The translations under genes and the position numbers were made by a program. 20,177 nucleotides of DNA from positions 1 to 20,177 of IMG/VR virus record IMGVR_UViG_3300031673_008930; one strand, 5' to 3'. Each line of letters begins with the position of its first letter. Within the stretch, counting starts at the first letter, position 1. This document shows, piece after piece, positions 1,132 through 10,334 of the stretch. Source of the DNA: a virus. The notes under the pieces are model-generated. The model saw nothing but the letters and a program-made list of their open reading frames with translations. It did not search any database and was not told the DNA's origin.

Positions 1132-2205
1132 TTAAGTTGCAAGGCCTCCTATGCTGAACCCGGTTAGTCCTGACTCCTTAACCATCTGCCATTCCTTGTC
1201 ATTACGCACCTTTACTGCCATTACCCATGAGCCTTTCTTGATTTTCTGGTCGTACATTTCAAAGTCGCATGGAGCGATAAAGTTTTGCGCTATTCCGAGG
1301 TTCCAGTGTGATTCCCAGTCTTTGGATAGTTCGTCTGACATTACTGGAGTCTGTCTGCCGAGACGGTCCTGATGCTGTACGGTTAGGATCTGGTAGTCTT
1401 CCATGAACTTGTACATGGCGTTTTCTATCTCTAATTCATCGAACCAGTCGCCCTGAGAGTCTATGTAGTATGGTTCGAGAACTACACCGTAAACTACCCT
1501 TCGCTCTTCGTCCATCTTGAAAAATGGTGCTGTAGATGTGAAGTGTCCGTTCTTTTCGAGCATGAGCTGTGGACCACCGGCAGGGAATATAACGAGTGAT
1601 ACTCCCTTGAAAACTATCTTTGATGCCTTTGCATTGTTTTCCTGGATGGAAAGGCGCGGACTTATACCGAAACGCATTATACCCTGACGTCTCTGATAGT
1701 CGATGAGTTTTGCGATACGTTCATCGGCAAGGTAGATATCTGCCCTGAGGACTTTATCTGCTTCATCCCATCGTGTGTTTTCAAAGTGACCTACCCATTT
1801 CCACGTTCCTTCTTCGAGGTCGTCATGGTCGCAGAAGACAGAGTTCTTGTGACGGACTTCGGGGTCGTCTCCTTCGTGGATTTCTTGCTGTAAGTACGGG
1901 ATTGAAAGCTTTATCTCTTCGGCGCTGTATAATATGCCGTTTGCCTCACCTTCCCGCAGGAGAACTTCGTCTTTCATAACGTATGGAATTTCTATTTCTG
2001 ACTTCTGTTCCTGTTCCTTGCGAACCCACTTATCTCCTTCCTTTAAATATGCTTTCTTGAACATAGTCCAGGCGTAACCACCTGGAGACTGCATGTCTGC
2101 AGACTTTCCCTGGTCGTAGTATTTCGCCCAGACGTTAGCTTGCGGAAGGTCGAGTCCTGCAGTCTTTAATGCTTGCGGTACATCTTTAAATACAGACCAA
2201 GGCAT
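1132..2205 (-). CDS. Prohead protease: ChaB-like N-terminus, protease-like domain, XkdF domain
   Basis: A 357-aa protein with three parts. Residues 1-65 look like the ChaB-like segment often found at the N-terminus of phage XkdF proteins (AWTMFKKAYLKEGDKWV). Residues about 75-215 resemble an S78-type prohead protease core, with a candidate catalytic His127 (FCDHDD), Ser182 (GISPRLSI) and the following strand FKGVSLVIFPAG. Residues about 234-357 match the XkdF putative serine protease domain: YGVVLEPYYIDSQGDW at the start, His278 (VQHQD) and Ser351 (TGFSIGG) at the end. The expected role is cleavage of scaffold and capsid N-termini during head maturation. The start is chosen because CGGAGGTGA lies just upstream and the ATG directly follows the stop of the 70-aa gene. 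Two protease-like domains in one chain are unusual; one may be inactive or structural. Confidence 0.8.
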   Translation of the reverse strand: MPWSVFKDVPQALKTAGLDLPQANVWAKYYDQGKSADMQSPGGYAWTMFKKAYLKEGDKWVRKEQEQKSEIEIPYVMKDEVLLREGEANGILYSAEEIKLSIPYLQQEIHEGDDPEVRHKNSVFCDHDDLEEGTWKWVGHFENTRWDEADKVLRADIYLADERIAKLIDYQRRQGIMRFGISPRLSIQENNAKASKIVFKGVSLVIFPAGGPQLMLEKNGHFTSTAPFFKMDEERRVVYGVVLEPYYIDSQGDWFDELEIENAMYKFMEDYQILTVQHQDRLGRQTPVMSDELSKDWESHWNLGIAQNFIAPCDFEMYDQKIKKGSWVMAVKVRNDKEWQMVKESGLTGFSIGGLAT

Positions 2206-2422: not shown

Positions 2423-2833
2423 CTACTCCGGTGCTACGTTAAACTCTACGTTGAAGTTTGTGCAGTCTGACGGAGGAACGGTATCTTCGATTAATATCGT
2501 TGCGCATGCTTCGTCACTGTCACCGCTCTCGTTTTCATTGACATCTGTAGCGCTTACCCTATAGCACTTTAAGGTTTCAACTTCAACGGGAACTACTATT
2601 ACTTCGCTGTGAGTTAGGTTCTCTACCGGGTTTCCCTGATAGGTAAAGGGAACATCGTATTCAACTCCTGTTGCAATACTTATTGGCGGTCCTGACATTT
2701 CCTTGATTGTGTAATGGGCTATGTCTGCAGGTACGTTATGCGTCCATGAAAAGTTCAGAGTTGCATCAGCACCATAGCTTACGCCATACATTAAAAATAA
2801 ACAGGTAATGAGTAGTAAACATTTTTTCATCAT
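2423..2833 (-). CDS. Secreted single FN3-domain protein
   Basis: A 136-aa product with a Sec signal peptide (MMKKCLLLITCLFLMYGVSYGA, cleavage likely after YGA) followed by one fibronectin type III domain. FN3 hallmarks are the LNFSWTHN strand with Trp, the ADIAHYTI strand, and the CYRVSATDVNENESGDSDEAC segment, equivalent to the usual Y-x-V-x-A-x-D-x-x-G-x-E-S. Two cysteines flank that segment and could pair outside the cytoplasm. The start at 2833 is chosen over an ATG at 2839 because the SD (AAAGGAG) abuts the latter and is six bases from the former. It sits between the methylase fusion and the 70-aa gene inside the head module, so it behaves like a moron gene. Its role is unknown: surface exclusion, adhesion or a periplasmic function are all possible. 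Confidence 0.7.
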   Translation of the reverse strand: MMKKCLLLITCLFLMYGVSYGADATLNFSWTHNVPADIAHYTIKEMSGPPISIATGVEYDVPFTYQGNPVENLTHSEVIVVPVEVETLKCYRVSATDVNENESGDSDEACATILIEDTVPPSDCTNFNVEFNVAPE

Positions 2834-2846
2834 GGCCATCTCCTTT

Positions 2847-4451
2847 TTATTTAGCGTCTCTTACTTTGCTGCGGTTGTCAAACGGATAATTTGCTACGAG
2901 AAGTTCTGTCTTGTTTATCACCCCCCTCCAGGGATTAGCCTGGCTGCGAAGTTTTATGAAGCGCTGATAGAATCCGGTGAATATGTTACGACCTTGTTTT
3001 TCGTAAGTGAGCAGGAACTTTCCCTTTATGCTCTTTAGTATTTCCTGCATGGCAACAGGATCTATCTGGTATTTCCACGGGTACTGAGCGTTTGGATAGG
3101 GAGGGTCGATGAAGTGGAAGGTGTCTTTGGCATCACCTTTCCTGATTGCGTTTTCGTAAGAGTCGTTCATTATTTCTACATTTTTAAGTCTTTCGCGGAC
3201 CGGTGCAATACGCTTACATATTGTATGCGTTCTTCCGTCTGACACAGCGTTGTAACTTTTCATAAAACCGACATCTGAAAATCGTTTCAAGTACATTATT
3301 CTGTAAAACCTCTTGGAGCTGTTTTCCTTTTGTCCCGGTGTCAACTTATTATGATCAACCTTATCGGGAGTTTGGCTATCGCCAGAACTGCCTTTCGGTT
3401 TCTCATCATCGTTGAACCCGAAATCAAAAGCTCCCTCTGACTTTTCCATGAACTGCTTTTGTTCGCTTTTTAATTGTTCGAACTGTTTCTTGCTTGACTT
3501 CCAGTTAAATCGTTCGAGGGTTGCGATGTCTTCGTCTGTGCAGGTCTGGATGTACTTGTAAAGGAAGTAGATCTCCGGATCTCTGTCACAAACTATTTCG
3601 TGCGGTGATGGATCTTTCTTGAAAAAGAGTGAGCCGCCACCCATGAAGCATTCTACGTAAGTCTGGTGAGGTGGCATGAAGCGGAGTAAGTGTTTGAGCA
3701 TAAAGCGTTTACCGCCGGGAGAGCCGAACGGCTGACGAACGGATAGGGTTTCGTCAAGCTCGTCTATGTCCATTGAATAGCCGTGGTAAGCGAGGACAAC
3801 ATCCATGCCATCGGTGTAAGGCTGGATTGCCTTGTAGAGCCTGTCTCTTCCCATCTGTACGCATTGCTTGCCGAATGCCGTGAAGATAGCTTCCTGTACG
3901 CCGTATTTCTTGCAGAGGGAGATCTGATTGAGCAGGGAAACGTATTGGCGTTTGCTGTACGTTCCTTCTGTTGTTATATTGTCCTTGAAGGAATAGCCGT
4001 TTCCTATGAAGAGATCTGCTTTCTTTAAACCTTCTAGGTCGTCCGGACAGAATTCCGGTGCGTAGAGGACTGTCTTTCCGTACACGCTGAACATGACTGA
4101 CGAGCCGTTTACTTCAACGTCTTCTATGTCACCGAGAGATCCCCTGCTGTATTTTTCTGTAACTGTTGCGTCATACTTGAACAGCTTTGATAGCGGTTCG
4201 TGGTCTTCCGGATAGGCACATACTTTTTGCTTGTCACGTTTCATTATGCCGTAAGCGTGTTCCGGTTCCGGAGAGGTCAGGAAGATCATGTCTGGATTGA
4301 GCAGGCTTACTTTATCAACCCAGTCCTCGCCACAGTTAAGCATCATTCTCTTGCCTTGAGAGTCAACTACTACAGTTGAATCTGCCTGGCAGTCTGATGA
4401 CTTGACAAGAGACCTGTCTCCCTTGCAGCCTAGAAATCTTAAAGTAATCAT
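2847..4451 (-). CDS. Metallo-beta-lactamase-like domain fused to D12-class DNA adenine methylase
   Basis: A 534-aa fusion. Residues 1-225 resemble a metallo-beta-lactamase fold (opening ITLRFLGCKGDRS, then LLNPDMIFLTSPEPEHAYGI where HxHxDH would be). The metal ligands are mostly replaced there: S-P-E-P-E-H. Residues 240-534 are a Dam-like N6-adenine methyltransferase: SPGGKRFMLKHLLRFMPPHQTY and ECFMGGGSLFF (SAM-binding motif I, residues 267-277), CDRD at 288-291, and the catalytic DPPY at 449-452. A charged Lys/Glu/Asp linker (about 318-380) lies in the region of the target-recognition domain. The expected activity is methylation of adenine in phage DNA, protecting it from restriction or controlling packaging. 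The recognition site cannot be read from sequence. AAGGA lies eight bases before the ATG. The neighbours are a lipoprotein gene and the FN3 gene. Confidence 0.82.
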   Translation of the reverse strand: MITLRFLGCKGDRSLVKSSDCQADSTVVVDSQGKRMMLNCGEDWVDKVSLLNPDMIFLTSPEPEHAYGIMKRDKQKVCAYPEDHEPLSKLFKYDATVTEKYSRGSLGDIEDVEVNGSSVMFSVYGKTVLYAPEFCPDDLEGLKKADLFIGNGYSFKDNITTEGTYSKRQYVSLLNQISLCKKYGVQEAIFTAFGKQCVQMGRDRLYKAIQPYTDGMDVVLAYHGYSMDIDELDETLSVRQPFGSPGGKRFMLKHLLRFMPPHQTYVECFMGGGSLFFKKDPSPHEIVCDRDPEIYFLYKYIQTCTDEDIATLERFNWKSSKKQFEQLKSEQKQFMEKSEGAFDFGFNDDEKPKGSSGDSQTPDKVDHNKLTPGQKENSSKRFYRIMYLKRFSDVGFMKSYNAVSDGRTHTICKRIAPVRERLKNVEIMNDSYENAIRKGDAKDTFHFIDPPYPNAQYPWKYQIDPVAMQEILKSIKGKFLLTYEKQGRNIFTGFYQRFIKLRSQANPWRGVINKTELLVANYPFDNRSKVRDAK

Positions 4452-4484: not shown

Positions 4485-4910
4485 CTATTCAACGATTACT
4501 ATTTCCTTATCTGTATCTTTTGAGTCTTCGAGGAATTCAGCGTAACCTGTAACTGCCTCCTGTCCGTAAAGCATGGTGTCGGTAACTCCGGTTCCCTTAT
4601 TGAACATATCTATGGAAACGTCAAGAACGATAGTTGCGTCTGGAGCGAGAAGCATTCTTGTGCTGTTGAGATAGCCGAATGACAGTTTAAATACAGAGAA
4701 ACCGCCTGTTCCCGGAACTGGAATCTCCATGTCTCCGCCAACTCCCTTGTTTACATATATGGTGTTGTAGCCATCTGCTGTCTGGAGCTGACCGAATGAG
4801 AACCAGCCACCTTCTTCAACTGATCCGTCAGGACGTATAGTTTTCATGGGACCGACAGTGCATGATGCAAGTACTGAAGCGCAAAGAAGTAATAATAATA
4901 AACTTTTCAT
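4485..4910 (-). CDS. Predicted lipoprotein, 141 aa
   Basis: The N-terminus is a lipoprotein signal: MKSLLLLLLCASVLASC with lipobox LASC and lipidated Cys17. The mature part is about 125 residues of beta-rich, Gly-rich sequence with no recognised domain (for example GGWFSFGQLQTADGYNTI and PGTGGFSVFKLSFGYL). It would be anchored in a host membrane. A strong GGGAGGT lies seven bases before the ATG, overlapping the stop of the portal gene. A lipoprotein beside the portal gene suggests a moron such as a superinfection-exclusion protein, but nothing in the sequence proves that. The signal and gene call are firm; the role is unknown. Confidence 0.75.
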   Translation of the reverse strand: MKSLLLLLLCASVLASCTVGPMKTIRPDGSVEEGGWFSFGQLQTADGYNTIYVNKGVGGDMEIPVPGTGGFSVFKLSFGYLNSTRMLLAPDATIVLDVSIDMFNKGTGVTDTMLYGQEAVTGYAEFLEDSKDTDKEIVIVE

Positions 4911-4912
4911 AG

Positions 4913-6208
4913 CTACCTCCCCTTGTTCTTTGTTATCCTTGCCTGATTGAATATCCTGATGGGCTGGCCGTCTGCACTCGGAGTTCTTTCAACGTGAGAG
5001 GACGTTCCCATTGGAGTCCGTGTTCCCTTTCGTGGCCACCATGTATTTCCCCATGATACAGGAGGAAGCTTGTGTTCTGCGCGTATTTCGTTTATAGTTT
5101 TAATTCCGGAGTCTGTGTACTGCGCATCTATCTTTGCCTGAACTTCCCTTTCTTCTTTGAGGGCTTCTATGTCGTCAAGGTTGTACTTTGCCTTGATGTT
5201 TTCTTTTCCTTCGAGCTGTTTGAGCTTGGTAATCCTGCTCTGTGTCTTTTTAAGTTTAGGAGATATGGTTCCTTCGTAGAACAGTTTCTTTTGCTGGTGA
5301 GCGGTAGCGTAATTGGAATGCTCCATGAGACCGAACAGGATAGGGAATACTCCCATTGCAGCAAACACTTCTTCCCGGGCCTGCTTGCGAAGTTCTATGA
5401 ATGCCATTTCTCTGTGAGTTGGTGAGATCTCTTTGTACTTAAGACCTTCCTGAAGTACGGCAGTTGTCCATGCATTTGAATAGCTTCCGTACCTTGAACC
5501 GAATGATTCTTCGAGACGGTCTATTGCATCAGTTGAAAGATGCCTGTCTGTTTCAAGGACACCACCGATACGAGCGCCCATACGGAAGAAGTTTCTATTG
5601 TAAGCAAGGGCGTAGAGATCTATGGTCATGGTTTGGGTTGTGGGAGTTATGGGAGAGAAACCGTAGAGCTCTGATATAGGATTGAAATAGCTGAAGTGAA
5701 GTATCTCGCTTGGTTCGAATGTTATTTCGCTTCCGTTCATCGTGTAGATGTATTTACCGACAAGTTTCTTTGGATCTCCGACAACTTTCATGCGGTCAGG
5801 ACGGAGCGGATAGATCTCTTTTATCTTGTTGTTCTCACGGACGAGTTCCCAGTATGCGTTTCCGGTTAGTTCGAGGAATGAGTAGGTTGCTTCCCATATA
5901 TCGTACTCGTCATTGATCGGGTTTGGGTTCTGAAGAACTTTTTTGAGTTCGTCTTCCGGAAGCTCCTTGGCTTCTTTTCCAAGTCCTTCATAGAACTTAA
6001 GCTCTACACCTGCTGCTGCGTTAGCTATTACGTATACACTTGCGTAAGTCCATGTGTACTTTGCATATGTATAGATGTGCTCTTCCATATCGGAAGGTAC
6101 GCTTGGAAATGCGTATTCCTGAGAAACAAGCTGAGTTGTCTTTGATTCTTTCGCTAACTGCCGTGGAGCTATAATCTGCCTGTTGCTCTTTATAAGCTGT
6201 GTTCCCAT
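4913..6208 (-). CDS. Phage portal protein, HK97 family
   Basis: A 431-aa protein of the usual portal size. Family features include the early strand EELPEDELKKVLQNPNP, the ELTGNAYWELVRE segment, PLRPDRMKVV, and the stretch from EPSEILHFSYFNP through LYGFSPITP to NFFRMGARIGGVLETD. Further on are the crown/stem region FAAMGVFPILFGLMEH with SNYATAHQQKKLFYEGTISP, then a charged C-terminal tail. It forms the dodecameric ring at the capsid vertex through which DNA enters and leaves. The gene follows the terminase and the small 103-aa gene, as expected. GGAG is upstream of both a GTG at 6211 (five bases) and the ATG at 6208 (eight bases); I chose the ATG. Identity is secure and only the exact start is open. 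Confidence 0.93.
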   Translation of the reverse strand: MGTQLIKSNRQIIAPRQLAKESKTTQLVSQEYAFPSVPSDMEEHIYTYAKYTWTYASVYVIANAAAGVELKFYEGLGKEAKELPEDELKKVLQNPNPINDEYDIWEATYSFLELTGNAYWELVRENNKIKEIYPLRPDRMKVVGDPKKLVGKYIYTMNGSEITFEPSEILHFSYFNPISELYGFSPITPTTQTMTIDLYALAYNRNFFRMGARIGGVLETDRHLSTDAIDRLEESFGSRYGSYSNAWTTAVLQEGLKYKEISPTHREMAFIELRKQAREEVFAAMGVFPILFGLMEHSNYATAHQQKKLFYEGTISPKLKKTQSRITKLKQLEGKENIKAKYNLDDIEALKEEREVQAKIDAQYTDSGIKTINEIRAEHKLPPVSWGNTWWPRKGTRTPMGTSSHVERTPSADGQPIRIFNQARITKNKGR

Positions 6209-6211
6209 CAC

Positions 6212-6523
6212 TTATTCTCCGGTTCCGAAAATCTGGACGAGAGATCCAGATACATTTGATGTTATATAAAATGGTGATAAATATCTGTTTGTTCCTACGT
6301 CTATGGAGATTGCTTCTCCTACGTCTATTGCTATGGAGTTTGTTACGTTTACGTCAATGTTCCCTATGAATAGCATGCCTACGTTTGATGGATGAGACTT
6401 TATTGTTATGGAATGGAACTTGTGTTGCGGTCCTACCTCTATAGACTTTCCGGCTTCGAATATTTTTATCTGCATGGTGATGAGCTGTATTGTTTTGGGT
6501 TTGAATCGATCAAGGAATCTCAT
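6212..6523 (-). CDS. Small beta-rich protein between terminase and portal, 103 aa
   Basis: I do not recognise this protein. It is dominated by short hydrophobic strands with alternating Ile/Val and Asn/Asp (NVTNSIAIDVGEAISIDVG), so a small beta-sandwich is likely. There is no signal peptide or membrane segment. It overlaps the end of the terminase gene by 14 bases and ends one base before the portal start region, so it is translationally coupled to both. GGAGA lies upstream of the ATG at 6523; MQIKIF (Met17) is a possible later start. Position suggests a head or head-tail component, but this is inference. Confidence 0.6.
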   Translation of the reverse strand: MRFLDRFKPKTIQLITMQIKIFEAGKSIEVGPQHKFHSITIKSHPSNVGMLFIGNIDVNVTNSIAIDVGEAISIDVGTNRYLSPFYITSNVSGSLVQIFGTGE

Positions 6524-9188
6524 ACATCATTCTCCTTTTCCGGTGTCCTCCGGCTCCTATGAATATTACTTGCGGTTCATATGAATAGCTGTTGGCAGCT
6601 CTCATCGACATCCATGATGCCATTAGTACGTCACTGAATTCTGCAACGGGATAGGTGGTGAATTCTCTTATCCACTGGCATGTTCCGCATTTGCATGTTC
6701 CGCTGTGGTCTTCCATGTCTGATGGAATGCGCCACATTCCGCGTGAACATTCTCCGGCAAGGCCTGGAAGTCCTATGCTTGCATCTGTCTTTTCAGATCC
6801 GGTGAAGTACGGCTGTATTTTCTGTGATGCTTCTGATGATCCGGGAATGCCTGATACCGCTATCCATTCCTGCAATGCGTACTGGTAGTTATTTGATTCA
6901 ACGTAGATGAGCTGTGGCTTGTGCTCCATGCTTACTTCTACTATCTGCCGGGCTGTTTCAGGAGATGAAAACTTACCATAACGGATGTCTACCGTGTACT
7001 TGTATTTAGTTTCAGGATCTACCGCTATGGTAAATATTGATGTCCTTTTATTATCTGCACCTCTTCTGGTGTTGGCTATGGCAAGGTCGACTCCGGTGAA
7101 CTTGTGCCATGTTTCCGGTATTTTGAAAAACGGAACCTTTAATGCTGTGAGCTGGTCGACTGTTATGAGCTGTTCATCTGCGCTTACTGTTTCAAGGCCG
7201 AATGCCCGCCAGAATTCTCTTGGGTTTATTTCTGTTTCGAACCAGTCCATGAGGGCTTGCCGTGGCCAGACTTCTTCCCAGATCGGATCGAAGTTACGGT
7301 TTATGCCTTTTGCGAATACAGCGCCTGCGAATACCTTGTGCTTGCGGAGTACTCCGGTGAGATCTGCTTCGTGGTATGGAGTGCAGATGTAAGTCATTCT
7401 TCCGTTCGGACCGAGAAGGTTTTTAAATGGAGTCCATGAGTTGTCTATGATTGACTGCCGTTGTCTGGGTTGGGAGATGGAGTTAACGTAGGTGCATGGA
7501 TCGTCAAACATGAGCCAGTCTTTTCTACCGGACGGGGCTGATGTTATTCCCATTGAGTGGATAGATGGAGATTCGTCTGTACGGTCTCGTACAACGGTAA
7601 GACGGTCGAGTTTCCAGCTCAGTTTCTTGTTTGGAATTACGTGCGGAAAAACCGTGTGGTATCTTCCGTTCTCTTCTATTGTTTCTTTAATGGCTGAGAT
7701 TGCGGAGTGGCCCATTGGCTCTGACTGTCTGACGATACCGAATCGGAGGTTTGGGTTCTTACCGAGACCGAAGGTTGGGATGCCGAGAGTTATCTGGGTT
7801 GAATTGTGAGTTATGAAATCATTTGTTATGTGATTTCTATTTTTCTCAACTGATATGAAATACGTTTCTTCAGGTGGAAGTATGTTTACAGATACTATTC
7901 TGTCCCAGAATATAGGTGCATTTAATTTTTGCAAAAGAAGATCATTTTCCTCAAGCCATGCTGCATACTTAGCAACTTTTATATCGTTACCATTGCCGGT
8001 TGTTCCAAAATGACCACTGCTTTTTTCGGAACGATCACTATACCAATCTCTTGTATGCTTTAAATAAGATCTCCATTCAGGCGGAACCACATTAATCCAG
8101 CTTCTCGAAAATTTTCTATTGTTTAGCTTGTTGCAAATATCGTCAAGGACATTGTTCTTTTCTCCCTTGAATTTTATATTCTGTCTGAATAGAAGTACCA
8201 TATCTCCACGGACAGAAAGTCTCCATGAAACATGTCGCCTGCCGTTGTATGTTCCGTTTTTTAATTTCAGGACTGAAACTATATTGAAACGCAGGAGAAG
8301 GGTTGATATGTCTTCCAGTAATTTTTTACTTACCGATGAGAATGATATTTCAAGCCTGTTCTTGTCAACTGTTCCGTCACATGCAAAGTAAGCGCCTATG
8401 AACTCTGAAAGCTGATGCAGTGGAAGTCGGAATATATTTGATGGAACTGATTTTGTGTAGGAATTTTTACCGTATAGAGAAAATAGTTTTAGAATGTTTT
8501 CGGAAGGTTGACGAAGAGTGCATCTGTATATTTTTTCCTGCGTACTGTATCCTATGCCAAGGCTGTTACATATTTCCTTAAAGTGATTAATAATCGATGT
8601 GTCCTTGTTTGTAAATGAAGGCGGATGCGAGCATGAACCATCACCAATCATGTATCCGATAAAAATATGATCTGGATTAGTTGATTGCACCGGACTGAAA
8701 TGAACTCCAGTTGCAACAGGAATGAAATCATTTACTGAAAGAAGTTCTGCGTTTTTCCATGATCCTGAAAAAGTATAGAACGGATGATTTGACGTACACT
8801 TAATTGTCCTTCCTGATTTTGTTGATACTTCAAATATTCTATGCAATCCGTTAGAAGAAACGCTTGAGCATATATCTGATTCAAATGAATGGGTTTTTAT
8901 GTTGTATGAAATTATTGATTCCTGCTTTTTTATGCTTCTTACTTCCCTTAGTTCTCCGCTAGAAAGCTGTATTAATGTTTCTCCGACTTCGCATTTCCCG
9001 TGGAATTGGGGAGCAAGTATCATCGACCATTTCTTTGACTGTATAAAATCGTGCCACTGTCGGTGAAGATCGGCTTGCTCTATGTCGAAGACGTACTCCA
9101 TGTAGTCGTTGATGTTGACTCGAGCGCGTCTTATCTTCTCTGCTTCTGATACTTTCTGAACTATGTTACCGGCATTTGCTTGTGGCAT
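6510..9188 (-). CDS. terL: Terminase large subunit interrupted by an intein
   Basis: An 892-aa precursor. Residues 1-65 and 463-892 join into a 495-aa terminase, the normal size; residues 66-462 are an intein. The spliced Walker A is APQFHGKST, interrupted between Lys65 and Ser463. Walker B is WLMFDDP (558-564), followed by the coupling-type segment TYICTPYH. The nuclease half has the acidic triad Asp701 (GVDLA), Glu764 (IYVESNN) and Asp853 (FSDVLMA). A Cys/His cluster (H828, C832, C834, C837) sits before the last acidic residue. It is the ATP-driven DNA packaging motor and nuclease that docks on the portal. The ATG at 9188 lacks a clear SD but follows the small-terminase stop by two codon-scale bases, so coupling is likely. 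Function needs protein splicing, because the intein splits the ATP-binding loop. Confidence 0.95.
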   Translation of the reverse strand: MPQANAGNIVQKVSEAEKIRRARVNINDYMEYVFDIEQADLHRQWHDFIQSKKWSMILAPQFHGKCEVGETLIQLSSGELREVRSIKKQESIISYNIKTHSFESDICSSVSSNGLHRIFEVSTKSGRTIKCTSNHPFYTFSGSWKNAELLSVNDFIPVATGVHFSPVQSTNPDHIFIGYMIGDGSCSHPPSFTNKDTSIINHFKEICNSLGIGYSTQEKIYRCTLRQPSENILKLFSLYGKNSYTKSVPSNIFRLPLHQLSEFIGAYFACDGTVDKNRLEISFSSVSKKLLEDISTLLLRFNIVSVLKLKNGTYNGRRHVSWRLSVRGDMVLLFRQNIKFKGEKNNVLDDICNKLNNRKFSRSWINVVPPEWRSYLKHTRDWYSDRSEKSSGHFGTTGNGNDIKVAKYAAWLEENDLLLQKLNAPIFWDRIVSVNILPPEETYFISVEKNRNHITNDFITHNSTQITLGIPTFGLGKNPNLRFGIVRQSEPMGHSAISAIKETIEENGRYHTVFPHVIPNKKLSWKLDRLTVVRDRTDESPSIHSMGITSAPSGRKDWLMFDDPCTYVNSISQPRQRQSIIDNSWTPFKNLLGPNGRMTYICTPYHEADLTGVLRKHKVFAGAVFAKGINRNFDPIWEEVWPRQALMDWFETEINPREFWRAFGLETVSADEQLITVDQLTALKVPFFKIPETWHKFTGVDLAIANTRRGADNKRTSIFTIAVDPETKYKYTVDIRYGKFSSPETARQIVEVSMEHKPQLIYVESNNYQYALQEWIAVSGIPGSSEASQKIQPYFTGSEKTDASIGLPGLAGECSRGMWRIPSDMEDHSGTCKCGTCQWIREFTTYPVAEFSDVLMASWMSMRAANSYSYEPQVIFIGAGGHRKRRMMYEIP
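7803..8993 (-). mobile_element. Intein with LAGLIDADG homing endonuclease in terL
   Basis: A 397-residue intein. It starts at Cys66 (CEVGETLIQLSSGELREV, block A) and has the block B TxxH motif in TSNHPFY, with SGSWKNAELLSVNDFI after it. It ends with block F/G (RIVSVNILPPEETYFISVE and NDFITHN), followed by Ser as the +1 extein residue. Cys1, the penultimate His, the terminal Asn and Ser+1 are all present, so class 1 splicing should work. Between the splicing blocks are two LAGLIDADG-type motifs, IFIGYMIGDGS and FIGAYFACDGTVD, each with its acidic residue, so the endonuclease looks intact and the element potentially mobile. By eye the segment is more A+T-rich than the flanking terminase, consistent with later arrival. 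Confidence 0.95.
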
Positions 9189-9806: not shown

Positions 9807-10334
9807 TTAAGTATCTATGCATGGAGAACTTCTATATTTTTCACCACTCAGTACAAGCTTTATTGACCTGTCAAATGAACGTGCGTCATCAAACGGTTCG
9901 TTTGGTTTTCGCACTAGATCGTTAATGCATTTCGGCCAGTTTGATGGGATTGGTTCATCTGTTCTGGTTGCCCAACCGAAATCAGTGAGATTTATCTTTC
10001 CGTTTAGTATGAGTATATCGTCTGGTTTGATATCGTTGTGACAGCATTTGTATTTCTTCAGGGTAGTGAGTATGTGAGCCATCTGTATTTTCCAGTCACT
10101 CGGGATGTTGTATTGAGAGATACGCTCTCCTATGAATGTGAGAAGTACGTAGCCGTTGGCAAACGTGTCGAGGACTTTAGGAACACGATCGAAATCTTTA
10201 AGCTCCTGGAGCCAGTAGAGTTCACGGGTAAGGCAGTCGCAGCCGGGATACTTCTCGAACCGTCTTTTCTTTAATACGTACTGGTTGCTGTTTCCGATGT
10301 ACGCTTCTGATGTACCCGATCTATACATGCGCAT
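9807..10334 (-). CDS. Minimal kinase-fold protein, 175 aa
   Basis: A very short protein-kinase-like fold. Visible elements in order are VLKK (candidate ATP-binding Lys22/23), Glu38 in RELYWLQEL (candidate alphaC Glu), a hinge-like YVLLTFIGE (62-70), and the catalytic loop HNDIKPDDILI (His99, Asp101, Lys103). The DFG triplet follows (118-120). The metal-binding Asn of the usual HxDxKPxN is Asp106 here. The C-lobe is almost missing, since the protein ends about 55 residues after DFG, against about 250 residues for a normal kinase. It could phosphorylate a protein, or a sugar as WaaP/WaaY-type LPS kinases do; the neighbouring sugar genes favour the second, as inference. The start at 10334 has AAGGGA upstream and overlaps the preceding methyltransferase stop. 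It is the last gene of the cassette. Confidence 0.65.
   Translation of the reverse strand: MRMYRSGTSEAYIGNSNQYVLKKRRFEKYPGCDCLTRELYWLQELKDFDRVPKVLDTFANGYVLLTFIGERISQYNIPSDWKIQMAHILTTLKKYKCCHNDIKPDDILILNGKINLTDFGWATRTDEPIPSNWPKCINDLVRKPNEPFDDARSFDRSIKLVLSGEKYRSSPCIDT

Follow-up and report, generated by a model that had tools for sequence, protein, structure and literature searches.

Protection from restriction is the most frequent role of phage methylases. Polyvalent proteins of phages and conjugative elements, as set out by Iyer et al. 2017 (PMC5512222), are multi-domain proteins linked to portal and terminase genes that join a DNA adenine methylase to other DNA-acting domains; the same paper provides the nearest precedent for the protein described here, the head-borne methylase DarB of phage P1. 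The words "lactamase" and "XkdF" are absent from that paper, and "ligase" appears in it three times, so far as the passages show for RNA ligases only. Also already known, from PHROGs, are fusions of a D12-class methyltransferase (MTase) to an XkdF-type protease (phrog_1530 and phrog_13242). Among proteins of the metallo-beta-lactamase (MBL) fold, PhnP, YhfI and RNase Z (class II phosphodiesterase) make up one family, and the phage-encoded anti-Pycsar phosphodiesterase Apyc1 retains the HxHxDH motif and two zincs (PMC9117128). Inactive MBL proteins are represented by CPSF100 and INTS9, eukaryotic RNA-processing proteins that have lost their catalytic residues and act as non-catalytic partners of active ones (PMC4819959). 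A word search of the open-access literature, which does not amount to proof of absence, found no description of polyvalent-type proteins containing an MBL domain.

The window, a 20,177-base IMG/VR record, encodes on its minus strand a 534-aa protein composed of a pseudo-MBL domain followed by a D12 adenine-N6 MTase (2847..4451, -). The reading frame begins with ATG, and AAAGGA is found 9 nt upstream. Judged from the genes, the protein has the defining features of a polyvalent protein, namely at least two functionally different domains and a location with portal and terminase genes, but it is a small two-domain form and its packaging into the virion is putative. It also differs from the MTase-XkdF fusions, which place a related D12 MTase in the same head-protease neighborhood: the window encodes XkdF separately, and its MTase bears the pseudo-MBL domain instead.

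A second IMG/VR record (L002/L003) carries an identical coding sequence (1605/1605 bases) and differs from the window at 2 of 5528 overlapping bases. Since the gene is the same in both, the two records give no measure of purifying selection on the dead domain, and a search with the whole 534-aa protein gave no closer relative beyond this near-identical record. An artifact, whether an error of sequencing or assembly or a reading frame arisen by chance, would fit with the purely metagenomic source and with the apparent splitting of some related MBL genes (L017 and L197). However, the gene is identical in two records, and profile and fold evidence spans the whole frame. The second record, the profile match and the AlphaFold model refute such an artifact in practice, and we consider it barely credible.

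The MBL-fold domain occupies residues 1-230 (3762..4451, -). Residues 1-225 alone matched nothing significantly in Pfam, PHROGs or NCBIfam, and no match was returned when 50,697 phage records were searched by tblastn with the N-terminal domain. The single PDB sequence match of residues 1-225 (E 0.93), to a protein resembling a yeast killer toxin, was dismissed as chance. Residues 2-229 matched, far more strongly than chance would allow and with an E-value of 3.9e-24 (Z = 100,000), a profile of 30 other MBLs, which excluded the window and was drawn from fetched viral contigs carrying the intact MBL family. A designed probe for the intact family served as the lead for fetching loci and as one of the three rows of scan alignment A2; the profile, trees and models were built from the fetched loci only, without the probe. 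The AlphaFold (AF2) model of the domain, based on an alignment of 56 sequences, had a pLDDT of 90.7 and a pTM of 0.90. In Foldseek searches of the PDB the model matched an ELAC homologue (1zkp, 3e-12) and PhnP (3g1p, 2e-11), and VIA-align gave Z-scores of 21.7 for RNase Z, 21.4 for YhfI and 20.5 for PhnP. The model thus lies squarely among MBL phosphodiesterases and nucleases. Its likeness to PhnP, YhfI and RNase Z spans the entire domain (Z 20-22, about 210 residues, rmsd 2.6-2.9 Å), whereas the window sequence is only 13-17% identical to them, lacks HxHxDH and the later ligands and is fused to a DNA methylase. As judged by profile and model, the N-terminal domain is a member of the MBL-fold superfamily of the PhnP/RNase Z-like type.

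The metal site of this domain is lost. The nearly invariant positions of the family, in window numbering, are H60, H62, D64, H65, D133, D151, H170, H192 and D223; the window has S60, E62, E64, H65, E133, N151, Y170, A192 and H223, with His65 as the sole position retained. In the alignments, SPEPEH at residues 60-65 (4257..4274, -) replaces HxHxDH, Glu133 (4053..4055, -) replaces the metal-ligand Asp (PD to PE), and Ala192 (3876..3878, -) replaces the His of T-H-x-G. The third His falls in a region where the profile alignment has an 8-residue gap, and that His is lost. Thus HxHxDH, the third His, the bridging Asp and the last His, by which an active MBL is recognized, are all missing, and because only His65 remains, the domain is by its defining residues apparently not a metallo-hydrolase.

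These results bear on the original prediction, which had described an adenine methylase joined to a PhnP-like MBL fold whose metal site is dead. Fold, alignments and Pfam agree with that description, and the structure prediction it had proposed for residues 1-225, as a check for a different fold, yielded the MBL fold instead. Its reading of the motif as S-P-E-P-E-H stands in the alignments with relatives, but its account of the site was incomplete, as the losses extend to the later ligand positions (D133E, D151N, H170Y and H192A). The alternative ligands it had suggested, His84 and His223, find no backing: the His84 column is not a conserved ligand, and His223 replaces a nearly invariant Asp. 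A changed metal center built from Glu62, Glu64, His65, Glu133 and His223 would nevertheless leave a live hydrolase. The Asp-to-Glu changes at 64 and 133 are conservative and His65 is kept; however, Asn151, Tyr170 and Ala192 occupy the remaining family positions, and this set of residues was not found in any relative, so that we regard such a center as improbable.

The model also matches Apyc1 (VIA-align Z 18.6 and 18.4) and the AMP/GMP-bound MBLs 3qh8/3md7, and phages use Apyc1 against Pycsar (PMC9117128). Apyc1 and YhfI are cyclic-nucleotide phosphodiesterases, and a dead MBL of related fold might still capture an immune signal, either a cyclic nucleotide or one derived from a nucleotide, and blunt host signaling by holding it uncut. 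Yet the two zincs hold the phosphate in Apyc1-type enzymes (PMC9117128), and the zinc ligands are gone in the window domain, which, unlike Apyc1, is without the motif and is fused to a methylase. Moreover, the family is associated with DNA ligase and methylase rather than with known anti-signaling genes, and its position in a head module suggests late synthesis. A signal-binding role is, in our estimate, quite unlikely.

The methylase half is apparently an intact D12 adenine-N6 MTase. The domain covers about residues 238-527 (2871..3740, -) and is matched by PF02086, phrog_56 and alignment A7. Pfam MethyltransfD12 (PF02086) aligned with residues 245-463 at E 3.7e-18 and 66.6 bits (cutoff, 22), while the Dam model TIGR00571 (NCBIfam) scored 58.9 bits, below its curated cutoff of 114.85; "D12-class" is therefore the fitting name, not Dam proper. 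Both the FxGxGS-like SAM-binding motif, YVECFMGGGSLFF at residues 265-277 (3621..3659, -), and the catalytic motif DPPY at residues 449-452 (3096..3107, -), which is invariant in A7, are intact, just as the glycine-rich motif and DPPY had been read originally. Identity to phage homologues in A7 is 30-35%. Relative to them the window MTase has about 40 extra residues around 335-375, part of which is predicted with low confidence. GATC occurs in the window at 0.88 of its expected frequency, neither markedly avoided nor enriched, and does not favor any one site as the protected one.

The minus strand of the window is a compact head module consisting of a small-terminase candidate, a terminase large subunit with an intein (6510..9188, -; phrog_38, PF14890 and PF14528), a portal protein (4913..6211, -; PF04860, E 4.6e-70), a small lipoprotein-like ORF (4485..4910, -), the fusion ORF, two short ORFs, and a separate XkdF-type head maturation protease (1132..2205, -; PF14550, E 1.6e-20; phrog_3017). 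The small ORF immediately downstream of the fusion (2423..2839, -) is signal peptide-like; this call and the lipoprotein-like one were made from sequence only. A second ORF in the module has a weak XkdF-family match at its N terminus. In the second record, which repeats the region almost identically, a further ORF follows, by its sequence a candidate major capsid protein. The intein, with a LAGLIDADG endonuclease, lies at about residues 79-462 of the terminase large subunit, and related genes for ligases or polyvalent proteins (L017, L016 and L035) contain intein-like matches as well.

The combination of domains recurs in viruses. MBL, ASCH, ATP-dependent DNA ligase, D12 MTase and XkdF protease co-occur, in many orders, in viral proteins that reach 2332 aa in length. 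The genes of these proteins adjoin terminase, portal and capsid genes, and the proteins resemble polyvalent proteins. The D12 MTase family is a head-module family: among 79 MTase proteins in 77 phage loci, a count that includes redundant records, XkdF protease was found in 44, DNA ligase in 26 and MBL in 7. The order MBL-methylase, for which the original prediction knew of no standard family, recurs in L017, L043, L192, L197 and L232. It lies directly downstream of the portal gene in all of these except L197, a locus without a portal match, where a split MBL precedes the MTase and terminase is upstream; in L192 and L232 the start of MBL-MTase overlaps the end of portal. MTase-MBL or MBL-MTase combined with ligase is found in L018, L021, L023, L025, L027 and L194. 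The portals of L017 and L043 are 43% and 44% identical to that of the window, and the terminase large subunit of L017 is 37% identical. The MTases of these two loci belong to a D12 subtype other than the window's, and hence the MTase half may have been swapped, or the pairing may have arisen repeatedly. The window protein is a cut-down member of this viral multi-domain set of DNA-acting proteins encoded alongside head genes.

Several features of the related loci were recorded in passing. The MBL extends over two reading frames in L017 (5064-5639 and 5636-7054, overlapping) and in L197 (4155-4616 and 4638-8777), with a frameshift error, a programmed shift and a real split as the alternatives. 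Two or three tandem D12 MTase domains followed by XkdF protease form one protein in L193, L218, L200 and others. Proteins encoded after the ligase in L005 (8217-10205), L043 (15478-16998), L045 (8668-10098) and L223 (5494-7161) resemble a distant LigD 3'-phosphoesterase, with a LigD_N match of E 0.083 only; this tentative resemblance would suggest that phage head modules hold a set of end-repair functions like that of NHEJ.

Stand-alone cellular MBLs of the same family keep HxHxDH. As read from sequence, their neighbors in some genomes include LigD phosphoesterase and polymerase genes (L131), RtcB or archease genes (L119, L121 and L138) and an Fpg-type glycosylase gene (L134); L124 likewise lies near genes of one of these kinds. 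These neighbors point to nucleic acid repair as the probable setting of the live enzyme.

Erosion of the site is, by the aligned residues, not unique to the window among phage copies of the MBL. HxHxDH is intact in L017, L005, L011 and other relatives, whose hydrolase activity is putative. The MBL of L043 is dead, with SSSSLHH at the motif and the other ligands lost. At least five sequences (L176, L178, L183, L194 and L254) form another dead clade, with TQ, then x-D/E-x-DH, and PEF and TN at the later sites; its members are 40-57% identical, and all four whose architecture was read are fused to DNA ligase. A dead MBL can therefore be conserved. Partial losses were found in L040, L192, L197 and L232, where the motif retains its Asp and its first two His, its last His is changed to Cys or Ala, and the final His of the site is replaced by Gln, and in L029, which keeps HxHxDH and has lost the third His and Asp. 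Most MBLs were fetched with a THAHPDH pattern, and the share of dead copies is thus not estimable from these sets. A search for more dead MBLs at the N termini of other MTase proteins returned only the L187 type, with a weak E-value of 7e-6.

Independent losses of the metal site are likely, judging from the trees, in which L043 groups with L017 and its intact HxHxDH (support, 88/92) and the L176 clade lies elsewhere. AU tests did not reject the grouping of the window with the L176 clade (p 0.35), of the window with L043 (p 0.40-0.45) or of all dead copies in one clade (p 0.21). In pairwise comparison the window MBL matched L017 (E 5e-13) and did not match L176 or L194. Its end branch was the longest in the trees (2.1-2.7), which also fits decay.

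Decay is the main competing account: the MBL would have lost its substrate or partner and be drifting, and the protein would work only as an MTase, the fold surviving because it is needed for folding or because the loss is too young. Besides the long branch, the loss of ligands at nearly every position at once, the gap of 8 residues near the third His and the absence of a ligase match from the 20-kb window speak for it. Against it, the fold is still predicted with high confidence, the frame is intact, and the other dead clade has been conserved. We judge decay to be a serious possibility but a clearly less probable one than a retained function; a signal-binding role and a changed metal site are both less likely than decay.

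The explanation that we favor, with not quite even confidence, is a phage adenine-N6 MTase that protects phage DNA and whose pseudo-MBL has been kept as a non-catalytic docking domain. The MBL family normally sits in large head-module proteins that also contain ASCH, ATP-dependent DNA ligase, D12 methylase or XkdF protease domains. Lying between portal and head protease in a presumed late operon, the fusion gene would be expressed with the head genes, and the MTase probably methylates adenines in phage DNA around packaging or injection, a modification that would serve as protection against restriction. The dead MBL fold may serve, without catalysis, as a contact surface for nucleic acid or a partner and so hold the MTase in position. 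The analogy is with CPSF100 and INTS9, which the window domain resembles in its fold and lost catalytic residues; shared descent within their subfamily is not claimed. The linker between the domains (residues 231-247) is predicted with low confidence, which counts against this explanation.

Should selection indeed maintain the pseudo-MBL, this domain would parallel, in a phage, dead partners of the CPSF100 type, and the MBL of this class would have a structural role in addition to catalysis. That one late module links MBL, DNA ligase, methylase and head protease suggests a machine for DNA end processing and marking, made with the capsid in some tailed phages. A broader proposal, which we put forward as doubtful, is that phages hold a widespread, undescribed class of multi-domain head-module proteins (MBL, ASCH, nucleotidyltransferase-like, ATP-dependent ligase, LigD-phosphoesterase-like, D12 methylase and XkdF protease domains) that seal and mark the genome at packaging or entry, and that within it the MBL became a conserved non-catalytic scaffold several separate times, the window included.

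Other features of the window lie outside the fusion gene. Upstream of the head module, a long run of ORFs between 10321 and 19678 (-) includes ones that resemble a glycosyltransferase, a UDP-glucose dehydrogenase, a methyltransferase, a B12-binding radical SAM protein and a sulfotransferase, the last tentatively called from "IPKTGSTS"; together they look like an unusual sugar or surface-modification set. By the terminase genes, a 175-aa ORF (9807-10334, -) is protein kinase-like, its Pkinase match (E 4.6e-07) falling just under the cutoff. CTAG is strongly rare across the whole window, with 13 occurrences versus 36 expected.
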